DNA from: a virus
Length of the DNA: 21,148 bases
Reading direction: 5' to 3' (one strand)
IMG/VR virus record: IMGVR_UViG_3300038716_000043
Location: 1 to 21,148 of that record
Below the pieces are notes generated by a model. It had not been told where the DNA came from and searched no databases. It saw only the letters and a list, made by a program, of their open reading frames with translations. The position numbers and the translations under genes are program-made. Position 1 is the first letter of the stretch, and each line of letters begins with the position of its first letter. This document shows positions 2,153-19,620 of this stretch, piece after piece.

Positions 2153-2919
2153 TAGTCCCCCTTAATTATTTTATTGTTCCAAGTTGTCATTCCATTATGT
2201 ATGTCTAAGGTAATTAGGTTAAACCAACCATCATTAAAGAAATCTATGATTCCTACATTATGTGTCCAGTTTACCTTTCTACCTTTTAAAAAATCCTTTT
2301 TCAACTTACATAAGCACCCCATACTTTGTGCTATATGTACACCTGATATATGTTGCATTACACTTCGTTGGCAATCGTGAGTATGTCCATAAATCACATT
2401 ACAACCTAAATTCTGTACTGTTGTTCTTGCATGATTGACACTTGAATAATGCCCACCATGATAAGCATATAGTTTGCTATTTTCTACTTTAAACAACTCA
2501 CCATAAGGATACCATTTGTATCCCCTTTCTTTAATCTTAAATAGATGTTCAGGTTTATATCCATCTAAGTATGGGTTTTCATCTACAAAGGCATTATACC
2601 AATTATCGTGATTACCCATTGCCAAATACTTCTTTTTACACCCTACTTTTTTGAGTGCATTGTCAATTCTGTCTAAATGATAATTGACTTCATCTGCTTC
2701 TTTATCAATCAAGGGGAGTTGATATTCTAATGGTGGTCTTTTTCTTCTTGACCATCTCCAATGAGATACATACTCCCCTTCTGCAAAATCACCTAAGTTG
2801 ATAAATACATCAGGTTTTACTTTTTCAATTACCTTTAATGCACAGCTAAATGCCTTTTCATCATGTAATGGGAAGTGCATATCCCCAAAGATGATGCCTG
2901 TACTCTTGATTTCTTTCAT
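2152..2919 (-). CDS. Calcineurin-like metallophosphoesterase
   Basis: 255 residues with the standard metallophosphoesterase metal-ligand motifs in order: GDMH at 12-15, NLGDF around 41-45, MGNHD at 101-105, a His in YHGGH near 154-157 and GHTHD at 178-182. These bind two metal ions and hydrolyse phosphoester bonds; the substrate is unknown (nucleotides, nucleic acid ends and phosphoproteins are all possible). The region 55-75 (RWSRRKRPPLEYQL) is an Arg-rich insert. The ATG overlaps the lysozyme stop by four bases (ATGA), so it is co-translated with the lysis genes. Phage members of this family sit in various contexts, so a lysis role should not be assumed. Confidence 0.9.
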   Translation of the reverse strand: MKEIKSTGIIFGDMHFPLHDEKAFSCALKVIEKVKPDVFINLGDFAEGEYVSHWRWSRRKRPPLEYQLPLIDKEADEVNYHLDRIDNALKKVGCKKKYLAMGNHDNWYNAFVDENPYLDGYKPEHLFKIKERGYKWYPYGELFKVENSKLYAYHGGHYSSVNHARTTVQNLGCNVIYGHTHDCQRSVMQHISGVHIAQSMGCLCKLKKDFLKGRKVNWTHNVGIIDFFNDGWFNLITLDIHNGMTTWNNKIIKGD

Positions 2920-3392
2920 GTAGTTGTTGCCCTTTTATACCACCCAAAGTAAAATCGTTCTTGGTCAGGTTCTTCGGATACTAATCTACCATAGAATAAG
3001 CAACGATATGCTTGTAATCGTCTTTTTGATATTCTCCCTGCATTTTCTATGGTTATTTTTCCGATAACTCCATCTTCTTCAATTTTATTCATCTTTCTAC
3101 TATTGATGGCTTGTTGTAGTATTTTAACAGCTTGTCTTTGTCCCATATTGACACACATATCGAAATAGGTGGCTTTTAAGTCATTAGGTAAATTATCTGC
3201 TTTACTTGGTTTCCAATAATTGTTGTAATAGATATTAATTGCATCACTTTTGGTAAGATTCTTAATATCTAAATCAGGATACCATCGTTTAGCAATACCA
3301 AACTTAGTTTCACCACCTTTATCGTAAGGGTCATTTACATAACCCCCTTCATGTTCTAATACCTTGTCAATAATTTGTTCAAAGGTAATCAT
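2916..3392 (-). CDS. Endolysin, GH108-type lysozyme
   Basis: 158 residues starting with ATG at 3392 (MITFEQIIDKVLEHEGGYVN). The segment EHEGGYVNDPYDKGGETKFGIAK is split by family motifs: Glu15 in EGG is the expected catalytic acid, and GGETKFGI at 26-33 is the conserved follow-up. The C-terminal half (about 85-155) looks like the peptidoglycan-binding part usual in this family (DGVIGKITIENAG and following). It cleaves the glycan strands of peptidoglycan. The frame is open far upstream to 3593, but that part lies inside the holin gene. The chosen ATG overlaps the holin stop (ATGA), as expected for a holin-lysozyme pair. There is no signal peptide, so it depends on a holin. Confidence 0.88.
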   Translation of the reverse strand: MITFEQIIDKVLEHEGGYVNDPYDKGGETKFGIAKRWYPDLDIKNLTKSDAINIYYNNYWKPSKADNLPNDLKATYFDMCVNMGQRQAVKILQQAINSRKMNKIEEDGVIGKITIENAGRISKRRLQAYRCLFYGRLVSEEPDQERFYFGWYKRATTT

Positions 3393-3760
3393 GCTGACTT
3401 CTTCACTTTTTCGAACGAACGCATTCCCCCAAGACCGAGCATACCCAAAAGTATTGTCGTGAGAGTTGTCATATCGAATACTGGTAAATCCACTTGATAG
3501 CCAAATGAATGTAACAGAAAAAGTAAGAAGGGTTGTAGTACGAAGTGATAACATAGTGCTACTCCACAAGTCCAACCAACAAAAGGACGCCAACCTGCAA
3601 CAAATAAGCTATTGCTATTGGCTTCAACTTTATTAACCTCAATTTGAGCTTTGTTAATCTCTTGTATGAGTTGTGCTTTTTCTGCTTTGTCAAGTGTAAA
3701 GTCATCAATCTTATCTGCTACTTTATCTATGATTCCTGCTACTACATTTAATTTAGGCAT
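3389..3760 (-). CDS. Holin-like membrane protein (3-helix GTA-holin type)
   Basis: 123 residues starting at the Met of MPKLNVVAGIIDKVADKID. A long amphipathic helical N-terminal part (about 1-55, rich in Lys, Glu and Gln) is followed by RPFVGW and a hydrophobic run (about 60-85), then a second run near 95-115 (TTLTTILLGMLGLGG) and a basic end. This layout, with the WRPF motif before the helices, matches three-helix holins of phages and gene transfer agents. It makes the membrane lesion that lets the adjacent GH108 lysozyme reach peptidoglycan. The frame is open for 11 more codons upstream, but the chosen ATG overlaps the previous stop by 8 nt and is the natural start. Gene order supports the role. 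Confidence 0.8.
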   Translation of the reverse strand: MPKLNVVAGIIDKVADKIDDFTLDKAEKAQLIQEINKAQIEVNKVEANSNSLFVAGWRPFVGWTCGVALCYHFVLQPFLLFLLHSFGYQVDLPVFDMTTLTTILLGMLGLGGMRSFEKVKKSA

Positions 3761-3977
3761 CTTTTTCTTCTTTCTTATCATCTTTTTTATCAAAAGATTC
3801 TGTTAGCATTTTAGCAAAAGCACCTTCGGCTACATTTTCTCTATCCATTTCAAAAGCCAAAGATGATTTTCTCTTTCTACAATTTTCTATGTGTTCTACC
3901 AAGATTTTCTGTTCTTGTGATAGTTCATCATAGTTGTAGTCTTTATCGTTTATATTTACTTTTCTTTCTTCACTCAT
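3753..3977 (-). CDS. Small acidic/basic helical protein, DUF6447-like
   Basis: 74 residues if it starts at the second Met (MSEERKVNINDKDY), with GAGGG-like ribosome binding about 9 nt upstream; the first ATG (3983) is too close to that site. The pattern is a short beta-hairpin (VNINDKDYNYDEL), then a helix starting SQEQKILVEHIENCRKRK, then a mostly helical charged tail. Proteins of this pattern (ID-K-Y...LS...K...V..L..L...) are common next to lysis or tail genes in cyanophages and are grouped as DUF6447 in my memory. The function is unknown. It ends 8 nt inside the holin gene, so the two are coupled. Confidence 0.65.
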   Translation of the reverse strand: MSEERKVNINDKDYNYDELSQEQKILVEHIENCRKRKSSLAFEMDRENVAEGAFAKMLTESFDKKDDKKEEKDA

Positions 3978-8405: not shown

Positions 8406-9242
8406 TTATGGATTTGTGAAGTTCACAACACCTAATGATGTTGAGTTAGCAGCATGTGATAATGCTGCACCGAATAGTACATCTGCTACAACAGAAGTTG
8501 CTAAGTGGTCAATATCATAAGATGATTGAACTCTTGGTGCTACTTGTTGTGCAAAGTACACAGATTGTCTGTTAAAGATAGTTGCTGTTTCATCATTTGA
8601 ACCACCATCATCGTCCCAGTCAGTAGAAGGGAAAACATTTAAGCCATAAGCTGACATGATTTTACCTTGTGCGTGTGGGGCTGCTCCATCTCCTCTAACA
8701 TTAGCATCTGTAAAGTCGCCTAATGATAGTAAAGACATATAAGAAGCAGGTGAACAATATAAGTAGTGTTCTCCATCTGTGTAGTCAAATCCTGCATCAA
8801 GCAGTTTCTGTAAACCAGTTCTAATTAATGCAGTTGTAAATACATTGTCAGAACTTAAAGCAGTATCGTTACCAGTAGCAGATTGTAAAATATCTACTGC
8901 TAAGTAGTTTTCTACTTTTTTAGCTAAAGCATAACCCATTGATTTGGCATAAGCACCAAATAGGTCAGCAGATTCTTGAACTCTTACGATGTCCTCGATT
9001 CTTTTAGCTTCGTAATGATGTTGGTCAACTGTTAATTGAATCACACCATCTGTGTTATTTTGATAAGTTACTGCAGTTCCTGCAGACTTAGCAGCAGCAG
9101 TATCTTCTGCTACTTTAGGGATATTTAAAATATCCCCACCTTCAGCTAACATACTCGAGAAATCTGACACTTGATTACGAAGAACGAATTTTCTTTCTGC
9201 ATAATCTAAAATTGCGTCACGCCACATTTCCGGAATAAAATT
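8406..9242 (-). CDS. Major capsid protein, exon 2 (residues 12-289)
   Basis: The bulk of the major capsid protein. Joined to exon 1 (9490-9522) it gives 289 residues, starting MADGNVTTTTANFIPEMWRD. The sequence (AERKFVLRNQVSDFS, INIPK, VTYQNN, HHYEAKRIEDIVRVQ, then the repeated helices and a C-terminal beta-rich part) fits an HK97-fold coat protein of the type found next to scaffold and MuF genes. It assembles into the icosahedral shell around the scaffold encoded just upstream. The frame is open back to an ATG at 9227, but that has no ribosome binding site and would lose the conserved FIPEM start. No frame join without splicing is possible, since stops interrupt the insert. Gene order scaffold-coat is the standard one. 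Confidence 0.85.
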   Translation of the reverse strand, partial: NFIPEMWRDAILDYAERKFVLRNQVSDFSSMLAEGGDILNIPKVAEDTAAAKSAGTAVTYQNNTDGVIQLTVDQHHYEAKRIEDIVRVQESADLFGAYAKSMGYALAKKVENYLAVDILQSATGNDTALSSDNVFTTALIRTGLQKLLDAGFDYTDGEHYLYCSPASYMSLLSLGDFTDANVRGDGAAPHAQGKIMSAYGLNVFPSTDWDDDGGSNDETATIFNRQSVYFAQQVAPRVQSSYDIDHLATSVVADVLFGAALSHAANSTSLGVVNFTNP

Positions 9243-9489
9243 CTAAATGTTATCGTCAAAGTTTTTTATCATTGACTTCTATATCTTTCAATATAGTTCA
9301 GCATATCTTTTCACTATAAGGTGGCTAACCTTTCTGTGTCGCTGCCTCTTGGAAGTATTATATCTTTTCAACTTCTATGCGTTGCCCCTGAATAATCTTT
9401 GATTATCCTTCGGTTCTGATTCCCATGCCTTTCGGTTTAGAGTTCCAGCTTAATTCAGCGATTTATAGCAGCCAATTTTATCGTTCAGC
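9243..9489 (-). ncRNA. Group I self-splicing intron (247 nt) in the capsid gene
   Basis: In transcript order the insert runs 9489 to 9243 and has stops in all useful frames. Its 5' end carries an internal guide sequence AAAATT-GGCTG (9479-9469). GGCTG pairs with the last five exon bases CAGCT, ending in a U-G wobble at the splice site (P1). AAAATT pairs perfectly with the first six bases of exon 2, AATTTT (P10). The insert ends in G. Splicing joins codons GCT and AAT in phase 0. Inside are an 8-bp hairpin (GGATAATC-AAA-GATTATTC), a second stem (GAAGT/ACTTC), a CC-GAAA-GG tetraloop and an AAGATATGCTGAAC segment like the J8/7-P7 (S) motif. Possible P3 is GCTGA/TTAGC. I could not resolve the full core by eye, and no homing endonuclease is inside. 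Confidence rests on P1, P10 and the restored protein. Confidence 0.85.
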
Positions 9490-9522
9490 AGCTGTAGTTG
9501 TTGTTACATTTCCATCAGCCAT
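9490..9522 (-). CDS. Major capsid protein, exon 1 (residues 1-11)
   Basis: Eleven codons, MADGNVTTTTA, starting with ATG at 9522 with AAGGAGAG upstream, the best ribosome binding site in the head region. Without splicing, translation would continue only AER and stop. It ends exactly with the GCT codon whose U is the last base before the intron. Capsid proteins of this type often begin with a Met-Ala-Asp-Gly or similar Thr-rich leader followed by a FIPE/W segment, so the spliced joint reads naturally. Confidence 0.82.
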
Positions 9523-14797: not shown

Positions 14798-15100
14798 TTA
14801 TTTTCTACGAAGTAAATGCTTAATTATGGTGGCTTGTTTAGATAGTTTTTTGATGGCTCGGTTATAGTAAGTCTTACAAGCCGATTCTGATATTCTCATG
14901 TTAAATGCTATGTCTGCAAAAGGTTTTTTGTATATACTTCTGTCATAGAAAGTTTGATATTCTTGGTCAGTCAATTCTCTACCTGCTACTACTCCAGTTA
15001 GTACATATTTGAGTTCTTGTAGCATTTTAGCTTGTTCTTGCTCTACTTCATCTATTAAATCCTGATAACTTCTTGCTGTGTTTTCGATATTGTTTTTCAT
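14798..15100 (-). CDS. Sigma-region-4/RinA-ArpU-like helix-turn-helix protein
   Basis: 100 residues starting with ATG at 15100, overlapping the methyltransferase stop (ATGA). The first 40 residues are helical with IDEVEQEQAKMLQEL. Residues about 57-88 (KKPFADIAFNMRISESACK, then a basic helix with YYNRAIKKL) look like a sigma-70 region 4 or LuxR-type helix-turn-helix. Phages often encode such small proteins (RinA, ArpU types) just before the terminase genes to switch on late transcription. That matches its place as the last early gene before the packaging genes. The alternative is a terminase small subunit with a similar fold. Confidence 0.65.
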   Translation of the reverse strand: MKNNIENTARSYQDLIDEVEQEQAKMLQELKYVLTGVVAGRELTDQEYQTFYDRSIYKKPFADIAFNMRISESACKTYYNRAIKKLSKQATIIKHLLRRK

Positions 15101-15873
15101 GTTGTATTTAACCTTTTATTAGCAAATTCTACATATTGTTTATCTATATCACAGCCAAAATAATCTAATCCCATTTCTTTTGCTGCTATAAATGATGTTC
15201 CAGTTCCTGCAAAACAATCAAATAATATTCCTTTTTCTAATCCTGATAATTGTATGCACTTTTTTACAAGATTTTTAGGAAATACTGCTATATGCCCACC
15301 TTTTATTTTGTCATTACTGATTTTACCACTTCCTACTGTTTCATAAGGTATATGCCAAGTGTTTACTGTTGGTCGCCACAATCCAATGTTATATCTCTTT
15401 TTATTTTCTTTTATATGCTTCGGTTGATAACCAACACCACTTTTTTCTTGTGATATTTTTGTATTTCCATTTTTAGTAAGATGAAATACAAATTCCCAAC
15501 CATTTGGTAAATATTTTTCACTACGAAATGATGTACCTTGACCTCTTATGTGTTTATCTATTTCTATTTGTTTATTCCATATTATAGTGTTTTGTATTTT
15601 CCAGTCTAATCTTGAAACAAGATTATAACACCATAAAGGGTTTTTTCTTGATGGTTGCAAGTTTAAAAATAAATGTCCACGACTTTTTAACTTTTTACAA
15701 ACTGTGTTCCATACTTCTACTTGCCAATCTATAAAGTTAATTTTATTGTCATTATAGGTATTATACTTCCTATTTATGTTATAAGGTGGACTGCTTACTA
15801 CAATGTCAAAAGTATTGTCTTTTACACCACTCATAACTTCTAAACTATCTCCACACAGTATTTTATTTTTCAA
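15097..15873 (-). CDS. DNA amino-methyltransferase (N4-cytosine or N6-adenine), copy 2
   Basis: 258 residues. Motif IV SSPPYN lies near residues 28-33, and the AdoMet-binding motif I FDCFAGTGTS near 218-227, so the order is beta-class (catalytic motif first). It transfers a methyl group from AdoMet to the amino group of A or C in DNA; the target cannot be read from sequence. The start is TTG at 15873, overlapping the stop of the neighbouring methyltransferase (TTGA); no later Met fits the conserved MKNKILCGDSLEVM start. The same MKNKIL-GD-LEVM start occurs in the neighbour, so the pair looks duplicated. It lacks a paired restriction enzyme and probably protects phage DNA. Confidence 0.88.
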   Translation of the reverse strand: MKNKILCGDSLEVMSGVKDNTFDIVVSSPPYNINRKYNTYNDNKINFIDWQVEVWNTVCKKLKSRGHLFLNLQPSRKNPLWCYNLVSRLDWKIQNTIIWNKQIEIDKHIRGQGTSFRSEKYLPNGWEFVFHLTKNGNTKISQEKSGVGYQPKHIKENKKRYNIGLWRPTVNTWHIPYETVGSGKISNDKIKGGHIAVFPKNLVKKCIQLSGLEKGILFDCFAGTGTSFIAAKEMGLDYFGCDIDKQYVEFANKRLNTT

Positions 15874-16589
15874 AATAGCTTTCCTTGCATAGTGGCATTT
15901 TTAATTCTTTTTTTTGCAAGTTCATGGTAATTTTCATTTAATTCTATACCAATGAAGTTTAAACCAAAACGATTTGATACTACACCAGTAGTTCCACTAC
16001 CCATGAAGTTATCTAAAACTACATCACCTTTTTTTGATGCTACTTTTAATATTCTTTCAACAAGTTTTTCAGGCATTTGTGTTGGGTGTATTCTTCCCTC
16101 TTTTTTTGTAATGTTATGTGGAACATACCAAACACTTGAAAGTGGGTCATCTATGCCACAATCATCATTTAAATAAATGTCATTACCTTTAGATAAATGA
16201 TAAATAATTTCATAATCTAAATGGAATCTTGATTTTGTAGAATCAAAAGAACCTGCATATTTCCAAATAATAAAAGATTTAAAATTTAACTTTTTAAATC
16301 CTTCTGTAAATTCTATCCAATGTGGAGTAGATAACATCTTATTAAATGTTTTAGATTTAATATTAAAAAATATTTGTCCATTTGGTTTTAATACTCTTTC
16401 ATAGTCTAAAAAAACTTGTTCTAAAAATTCTGAATATAATTTTAAAAATAAAATATCTTTTTTTTGTGCAGCATATCCTGCACCATGTATATCTTCATAA
16501 GGTGGAGAAGTAATAATTAAATCAACTGAATTATTGTTTAATTCTTTCATAACTTCTAAACAATCGCCTTGTAGTATTTTATTTTTCAT
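15870..16589 (-). CDS. DNA amino-methyltransferase (N4-cytosine or N6-adenine), copy 1
   Basis: 239 residues starting with ATG at 16589 (MKNKILQGDCLEVMKELN). The frame is open further to a TTG at 16613, but the paralogue next to it begins at the same Met. Motif IV TSPPYED is near 28-34, and motif I LDNFMGSGTTG near 193-203, the beta-class order. RIHPTQMPEKLVERIL before motif I is a hallmark of this group, and contacts AdoMet. It modifies phage DNA together with its neighbour, probably at a different sequence, since the central regions differ. The start has only a weak AAAAG upstream and may rely on coupling to a short frame ending TGA over the ATG. Confidence 0.9.
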   Translation of the reverse strand: MKNKILQGDCLEVMKELNNNSVDLIITSPPYEDIHGAGYAAQKKDILFLKLYSEFLEQVFLDYERVLKPNGQIFFNIKSKTFNKMLSTPHWIEFTEGFKKLNFKSFIIWKYAGSFDSTKSRFHLDYEIIYHLSKGNDIYLNDDCGIDDPLSSVWYVPHNITKKEGRIHPTQMPEKLVERILKVASKKGDVVLDNFMGSGTTGVVSNRFGLNFIGIELNENYHELAKKRIKNATMQGKLF

Positions 16590-16658
16590 AATTCTTTTGG
16601 GATAAGCTGCCAAGCCATGTGATGTAGGGTAAGATTTCCTTTCTAAGTTTCATCACAA

Positions 16659-17235: not shown

Positions 17236-17835
17236 TTATCCCCATTGATTAACCATAGCTTTTGCAATACCTTCCCAAAACCTACTTCTTATCTTTCCAT
17301 GATTGCCTTTCCAACCTGCACCACTATTAAACCATTTAGCAGTATATGTTGGTTCATATTCATCTAATATATTTGTTGGTTTTAGCTTAGGTAAATTTTT
17401 TAACCACAATCTTGTATTTTTACTAAATGGATGTCCATATTCATAAGGTTGTACTGTTTGTGTATGTTTAGGCATTTCAAATATTCTTGCCGATATTGGA
17501 TTTTCTACACATATTTTTTCAATAGGTGCATTATATAAATCCATAAAGAATTTTTTACCTTCTAATCCTTTTTTATATCTTTCTTTATCAAGTTTTTTAT
17601 TAGGATATAACCATCTCATTCCAGCAACACTTAAATATGTGCAAGGTGGGTGTGCTATCATCATATCCCAATCATCGTTTAGAATATCCATAACATCGCC
17701 TTCATGATGTCTATCTGATTTTGTGTAATATTCACTTTCGCATGGAAGTATATCGCAGCTTATAGCATCATGTCCTTTTTTAAGAAACTCATCTCGAACA
17801 ATACCACTATATTCACAAGCTACTAATATTTTCAT
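17236..17835 (-). CDS. C5-cytosine methyltransferase-like protein, short form
   Basis: 199 residues starting with ATG at 17835, overlapping the exonuclease stop (ATGA). It has an N-terminal AdoMet-binding-like start (ILVACEYSGIVRDEF, motif I region), GDVMDI, motif IV AHPPCTYLS with the would-be catalytic Cys near residue 63, and the ENP of motif VI near 111-113. Full C5 methyltransferases are above 300 residues and carry a target-recognition domain and motifs IX-X. Here the chain ends SRFWEGIAKAMVNQWG after a short tail, so target recognition is reduced. Similar short proteins are common in phages. Activity is plausible but not certain. Confidence 0.72.
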   Translation of the reverse strand: MKILVACEYSGIVRDEFLKKGHDAISCDILPCESEYYTKSDRHHEGDVMDILNDDWDMMIAHPPCTYLSVAGMRWLYPNKKLDKERYKKGLEGKKFFMDLYNAPIEKICVENPISARIFEMPKHTQTVQPYEYGHPFSKNTRLWLKNLPKLKPTNILDEYEPTYTAKWFNSGAGWKGNHGKIRSRFWEGIAKAMVNQWG

Positions 17836-18464
17836 CTTTTATTCTCCTGAATTTTTAGTAATAACTTAAACATCTTCCATCCCCAGTTCAAGTCTTTAAT
17901 CTTGTAATGATGTTCCTCATAGACTCCTTTTTCATCTTTATCTAGTTTTAAAAGGATTGCACCTCTTATATCATAGCCAAGATTTTCTTGTATAAGTTGT
18001 CTATATGCACCTAATTGAATTAAAAATTCATCATACACAGCATTAGATGTTTTCCAATCACAAATAACAAACTTTCCATTAACAAAACATAAAGCATCAA
18101 AAGTTCCACCAAATTGATATTTTTCTGATACTAATTTCATTTCGGTTTTATCAAACTCTACATCGTTATCAACAAACCATTGATAAAATCCATAATAAGC
18201 ATTCTTGGCTTGTGATATTTCTTTAGGTGTATATCCATCTAAATTGACTGCACCACCTTTGATAAATTCTTCTATCATAATGTGTGCAAGTGTACCGATT
18301 CTTCCTGCTTCTTTCAAAAGTTGCATAGAATCTTCTCCATTTAAACAATGCTTCCTTGTCCACATTAAAAGTGGTTGCTTATTCCACCCTAAGTTTCCAT
18401 TAATAATGGTAGTAACACTTTTCAATCTCTTTTTTTTCTTATTCCTATAAATTGTATGTGCCAT
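17832..18464 (-). CDS. PD-(D/E)XK exonuclease, RecB/Cas4-like
   Basis: 210 residues starting with ATG at 18464, overlapping the previous stop (TAATG). Motifs of the RecB-type nuclease family are in order: GTLAH with His61, GGTFDALCF with Asp123, VICDWKTS with Asp136 and Lys138, and QLGAYRQL with Gln150 and Tyr154. There is no Cys cluster, so it lacks the iron-sulphur site of Cas4/AddB. Phage members act in recombination or end processing, often with an SSB or annealing protein, and an SSB-like gene lies upstream at 20246-20857. The last codons contain the ribosome binding site of the methyltransferase gene. Confidence 0.85.
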   Translation of the reverse strand: MAHTIYRNKKKKRLKSVTTIINGNLGWNKQPLLMWTRKHCLNGEDSMQLLKEAGRIGTLAHIMIEEFIKGGAVNLDGYTPKEISQAKNAYYGFYQWFVDNDVEFDKTEMKLVSEKYQFGGTFDALCFVNGKFVICDWKTSNAVYDEFLIQLGAYRQLIQENLGYDIRGAILLKLDKDEKGVYEEHHYKIKDLNWGWKMFKLLLKIQENKR

Positions 18465-19221: not shown

Positions 19222-19620
19222 TCAATCGTTATCTAATTCATCTTCACTATTTCTTAATTGTAAATCATTGATTTTTTCTTTTAATTCTTCTATTTCTGCT
19301 AACAATGATAGCCAATCAGTAAATTGCATAGTAGCATAAAACTGTGCATTCATTTTAAATACATTTACTGGTGTTTTTGCTAATGGGCAATCATCATCTA
19401 TTTGTTCCCACCATTTAGGAATCATTAGTTTCTTTTGGTCTTTCACTTCAAAGTGAAATTGATATGCAGCAGAATCAGGATTTATATCTATAATATCCCC
19501 CTTAATTGACATTCCACCTGATTGTGGAGTTCGTCTTACATTCGTTCCTAAATATCTATTAATTAATTTAGCGACTTCTCGTTCTGCTCTTTTACCTTTA
19601 GCTTGTGAATTAATCGGCAT
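19222..19620 (-). CDS. Holliday-junction-resolvase-like PD-(D/E)XK nuclease
   Basis: 132 residues starting with ATG at 19620; GGAGAAAA lies just before it inside the end of the previous gene, which it overlaps by 11 nt. Motif order is KGKRAEREVA (Glu13), RRTPQSGGMSIKGDIID (Asp42), FHFEVKDQKKL (Glu58, Lys60) and IPKWWEQ. This matches archaeal-type Hjc and phage resolvase-like proteins, which cut branched DNA for packaging or recombination. The C-terminal 40 residues are an extra coiled helix (ISLLAEIEELKEKINDL in part). The packaging/recombination role is inferred; a restriction-like nuclease is possible. Confidence 0.72.
   Translation of the reverse strand: MPINSQAKGKRAEREVAKLINRYLGTNVRRTPQSGGMSIKGDIIDINPDSAAYQFHFEVKDQKKLMIPKWWEQIDDDCPLAKTPVNVFKMNAQFYATMQFTDWLSLLAEIEELKEKINDLQLRNSEDELDND

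Follow-up and report, generated by a model that had tools for sequence, protein, structure and literature searches.

Introns in the major capsid genes of phages have been described before. In mycobacteriophage LittleE, the gene for the major capsid subunit is interrupted by a probable group I intron, the splicing of which was shown by RT-PCR and N-terminal sequence (PMC3706429), and a capsid-gene intron of Tuc2009 is quoted in the same paper. Furthermore, Delta and Zeta crAss-like phages harbor group I introns in several core genes, MCP among them (PMC7886860). The locus discussed here, from an uncultured phage, resembles that of LittleE in its interrupted major capsid gene, in the U before the cut and in the G at the intron end. 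Whereas the LittleE intron is about 820 nt long, contains a putative endonuclease gene and resides in a phage whose host is GC-rich, the present intron measures 244 nt, lacks an endonuclease and belongs to an AT-rich phage, with splicing inferred here from sequence. The crAss-like MCP introns share with the present group several insertion points within one capsid gene; they were detected via endonuclease domains, a search that misses an intron without one. An earlier note on this DNA had stressed how notable a ribozyme in a capsid gene is, a point that these described cases weaken (PMC3706429, PMC7886860); for this phage group, our literature search found no capsid-gene intron. At the level of sequence, the closest relatives in annotated records are introns in the terminase region of Staphylococcus phages VB-SauS-SA2 (SA2; 74% identity over 133 nt) and 6ec and of the crAss-like phage cr131_1, which have the core and 3' end in common with the present intron but sit in another host gene, in records without intron annotation.

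The stretch analysed, hereafter the window, comprises 21,148 nucleotides (positions 1 to 21,148 of IMG/VR virus record IMGVR_UViG_3300038716_000043). Its terminase has its nearest counterparts, about 40% identical, in Vibrio, Stenotrophomonas and enterobacterial phages, and bacterial genomes searched with the upstream protein and the capsid protein gave no match. Several neighboring genes merit mention in their own right. The frames of a holin (GTA_holin_3TM) and a glycosyl hydrolase 108 endolysin overlap at 2916-3793, where the TTG listed as the endolysin start probably lies too far upstream, and two adjacent N6/N4 DNA methyltransferase genes occupy 15097-16613. Two PD-(D/E)XK nuclease-like genes are located at 17832-18464 and 19222-19620; either could encode a DNA-processing enzyme, while a role in intron movement would be a guess. 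The capsid gene and its intron are organized as follows.

9522-8406, minus strand: major capsid gene, interrupted by the intron
9536-9532, minus strand: strong ribosome binding site AGGAG, upstream of ATG 9522
9487..9522, minus strand: exon 1, 12 codons, MADGNVTTTTAA; GCTGCT (9492-9487) at its 3' end forms the exon strand of P1, with U at -1
9243..9486, minus strand: group I intron, 244 nt, phase 0, without an endonuclease ORF (empty-site alleles and models R1/R2)
9478..9480, minus strand: in-frame TAA, third intron codon
9474..9479, minus strand: P10 strand AAAATT, partner of exon 2 AATTTT (9242-9237), from sequence
9468..9473, minus strand: internal guide GGCTGC (P1 intron strand), with U·G at the cut and here a U·U mismatch at -4
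9456..9461, minus strand: P3 5' strand TCGCTG, partner CAGCGA 9344-9339 (26-sequence alignment)
9416..9448, minus strand: P4-P5 domain; P4 is 9448-9445 with 9419-9416 (26-sequence alignment)
9390..9408, minus strand: P6a hairpin GGATAATC/GATTATTC, with two-sided changes in all its pairs
9376..9384, minus strand: P7 5' strand CAACGCATA, partner TATGCTG 9305-9299, 100% of cells paired
9352..9375, minus strand: P7.1 hairpin GAAGT...ACTTC, between P7 5' and P3 3' (alignment)
9339..9344, minus strand: P3 3' strand CAGCGA (alignment)
9312..9338, minus strand: P8 hairpin, helix base 100% paired
9299..9305, minus strand: P7 3' strand TATGCTG (alignment)
9279..9296, minus strand: P9 hairpin CTATAT/ATATAG (alignment)
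9255..9276, minus strand: P9.1 hairpin with conserved GATAAAAA loop, then conserved GATAACA ahead of the 3' splice site
9243..9247, minus strand: intron 3' end TTTAG, with the terminal (omega) G at 9243, from sequence
8406..9242, minus strand: exon 2 (NFIPEMWRDAILD...), phrog_267 major head protein (E 3.7e-24)

The elements on which the earlier note had built its reading, namely the ribosome binding site, ATG 9522, the in-frame stop, the AAAATT-GGCTG guide, the terminal G at 9243 and the in-frame NFIPEMW, are all present. Left unspliced, the message encodes a 14-aa peptide, MADGNVTTTTAAER, ended by the in-frame TAA at 9480-9478, and an early in-frame stop is also found in the intron-bearing relatives. 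Among relatives, the intron ends in TTTAG, TTTG or ACTG, with the terminal G in common, and 5-6 pairs of P10 are kept, its AAAATT strand adjoining the guide.

The extent of the insert is set by alleles that lack it. Among the 80 best IMG/VR capsid relatives, 74 carry neither this insert nor a second intron found near the 3' end of the gene (see below), and the intronless alleles read ACAGCTGCT followed directly by AATTTT, or a close variant, at the insertion point. One of them, L002, shares 97% identity with the window across 1498 bases spanning the joint. Since these alleles keep the exact joint, the insert amounts to 244 nt (9486-9243) placed after codon 12, with a 290-aa product, and on their strength the main 5' splice site is most likely the one after codon 12. 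The earlier note had instead placed the cut after codon 11 (CAGCU|GCU), removing 247 nt to leave 289 aa; the frame survives either cut. The CAGCU/GGCUG pairing behind that proposal is real, forming a 5-bp P1 without mismatch in the window at -4.1 kcal/mol, within 0.3 kcal/mol of the codon-12 register (-4.4 kcal/mol), but the empty-site alleles retain both alanine codons and thereby favor a cut at codon 12.

Exon 1 and the internal guide moreover covary among relatives, with the U·G at the cut kept in all nine copies at this site. In L001 and L091, exon GCUGCU pairs with guide GGCAGC, and in L090, exon GCAGCU pairs with guide GGCUGC, each forming a perfect 6-bp helix that ends in U·G at codon 12; in these three relatives P1 is perfect in the codon-12 register only. 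The window and five others combine exon GCUGCU with guide GGCUGC, leaving a U·U at -4, and in five of these six mismatched copies the codon-11 register is almost as stable, while L088 has no usable codon-11 register. Splicing after codon 11, or use of both sites to make two capsid forms, thus seems improbable to us, and the codon-12 cut is adopted below.

The group I core was examined in 26 aligned sequences against a hand-written structure comprising P3, P4, P5, P5a, P6, P6a, P7, P7.1, P8, P9 and P9.1, with 52 pairs counted and with partners slid by 1-3 columns as control. Standard pairs occupy 89.7% of cells versus 33-38% in the slid controls, a comparison biased in favor of the structure, which was drawn while viewing some of the sequences; this bias does not explain the two-sided changes, which number 236 cells versus 27-63. 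No shuffle reached the observed percentage of paired cells or the observed score for covariation. P3, P7, P7.1 and P8 are paired in 100% of cells, with compensatory changes in P3 (two-sided in four of six pairs), P7 and P8, so that the alignment supports the P3/P7 pseudoknot, and the P4-P5 domain is paired in 83% of cells, with two-sided changes in six of its seven pairs. Within P7, a G-C pair invariant in all 26 sequences lies beside an unpaired C/A, and the neighboring pair switches between A-U (16) and G-C (10); by its position, the invariant pair would be the guanosine-binding site. Class IA introns are marked by an extra hairpin, P7.1 (and P7.2), that lies between P7 5' and P3 3'; here all five P7.1 pairs covary, which supports assignment to class IA. 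P7 3' had at first been paired with what is now the P3 3' strand, but this pairing failed across relatives and was dropped; P3/P7 as given holds. Single-sequence folding of the insert, a test blind to the pseudoknot, gave an unexceptional z of -1.44.

Family models connect this core to accepted group I introns. A covariance model (R2), for which 15 introns served as training set, none of them from this capsid gene, detects the insert of the window at 9464-9248 (183.1 bits, E 4.3e-51), together with all other copies tested at both capsid insertion sites, and the insert is the sole match to the intron model within the 21-kb window. In the same search, R2 finds two introns of the Staphylococcus phage Kayvirus PM25 and one of Lactobacillus phage JCL1032, all RF00028-positive, which anchors the family among accepted group I introns; these are more distant and, unlike the window intron, are scored by RF00028. 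The Rfam search proposed by the earlier note as a check yielded no group I match in the window with RF00028, at gathering or relaxed thresholds. The result is uninformative, because the AR9, SA2, 6ec and cr131_1 introns, which models R1 and R2 find or were trained on, also go without an RF00028 match; a negative Rfam search that misses clear homologous phage introns does not refute group I identity. Two introns in gyrA of Bacillus phage AR9 (L127 1463-1718, 1916-2172) are found by R1 and R2 but not by RF00028, indicating that Rfam undercounts this branch of phage introns. Additionally, blastn matched the 3' half of the intron in phages of Staphylococcus, in crAss-like phages and in others, frequently with the pieces of a split gene on either side, and a pattern scan yielded further relatives.

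Taken together, the empty-site alleles, the covarying P3/P7 core, the leave-out model, P1/P10 and the terminal G bear out the earlier reading of the insert as a group I intron within the major capsid gene. At this site (site A), the intron recurs in eight other contigs, at 237-241 nt, and its removal restores the frame in all nine copies. This recurrence amid diverged flanks, along with the full group I core, makes an assembly chimera or translational bypass, which would have nothing besides the interrupted frame in its favor, scarcely credible. Site B lies toward the 3' end of this gene, where L019, L020 and L021 contain a related group I intron of 273 nt; removing L019 5560-5832 restores a 273-residue downstream frame. 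In a capsid-first sample of 95 distinct contigs (hand-counted from two lists), four site-A and three site-B introns were present.

A dead intron might also be imagined, with capsid protein made from the internal ATG 9227 without splicing, as a 273-aa frame opens just past the intron. This codon is preceded by no Shine-Dalgarno sequence, however, and the residues upstream of it are kept in intronless relatives, while the intron core and pairings are intact. Moreover, the ATG is CTG in L038 and CTC in L044, L045, L071 and the intron-bearing L086, and in L086 initiation at that codon therefore cannot replace splicing. We consider such a dead intron very unlikely, and read the insert, almost certainly, as a 244-nt class IA group I intron after codon 12, mobile between phages and predicted to remove itself, with a 290-aa capsid protein as the expected product.

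Group I introns splice by two guanosine-dependent transesterifications. By family membership, an exogenous G would here attack behind the U of GCUGCU, which P1 keeps in place; the freed exon 1 would then attack behind the terminal G, with exon 2 aligned by P10, giving the 290-aa capsid protein. Ribosomes would halt at the TAA in the third intron codon and so stay out of the core; such an early in-frame stop has been proposed to protect the core in many introns of this kind (PMC3984707).

The intron has evidently moved between phages. The L086 and L089 introns show no difference in 240 nt, against about 80% identity in the flanks: in 80-nt bins, capsid flanks reach 75-84% downstream and mostly less than 90% upstream, and exact identity extends just 33 nt upstream and 8 nt downstream of the intron. 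Identical introns in diverged flanks point to lateral movement, despite no encoded endonuclease. Across all pairs, introns are 87-100% identical versus 64-98% for exon 2, and the comparisons indicate that in this phage group the intron is optional and moves laterally. The 244-nt intron has neither a long frame nor an endonuclease gene of its own; HNH_3, GIY-YIG and HNH models gave no match in ten capsid-intron records, mostly short fragments. The intron may spread when co-infecting phages recombine, perhaps following a cut in trans. A free-standing endonuclease reportedly targets an intron site in cyanophage psbA (Zeng et al. 2009, as cited in PMC3984707), which offers a model for such movement here rather than evidence of it.

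A possible trace of this movement lies directly after the intron. Over the 50 nt that open exon 2, the window differs from L002 at 11 positions and L090 at 10, a patch absent from the other loci examined. In the window (9242-9193, minus strand), all 11 differences are synonymous and account for 11 of the 31 exon-2 differences from L002 (binomial p about 1.5e-6), which could reflect co-conversion or recoding. We tentatively propose, as a scenario we hold to be rather doubtful, that a trans-acting cutter lets this small intron, itself devoid of an endonuclease, home among the diverged capsid genes of phages, that the synonymous patch of the window and L090 is a trace of this (co-conversion or a protected site), and that, where P1 is mismatched, the two in-frame 5' sites could give rise to two forms of the capsid protein.

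The locus thus presents, for an uncultured phage group, a compact intron of the capsid gene that escapes both Rfam and screens based on endonucleases; a single gene offers two insertion sites, and lateral movement is clear. Gene-calling programs would give the capsid protein a wrong start residue. The polymorphism for presence and absence, with near-identical alleles, makes a good natural system for studying how endonuclease-free introns spread, and equally suits asking what an intron costs a highly expressed gene.
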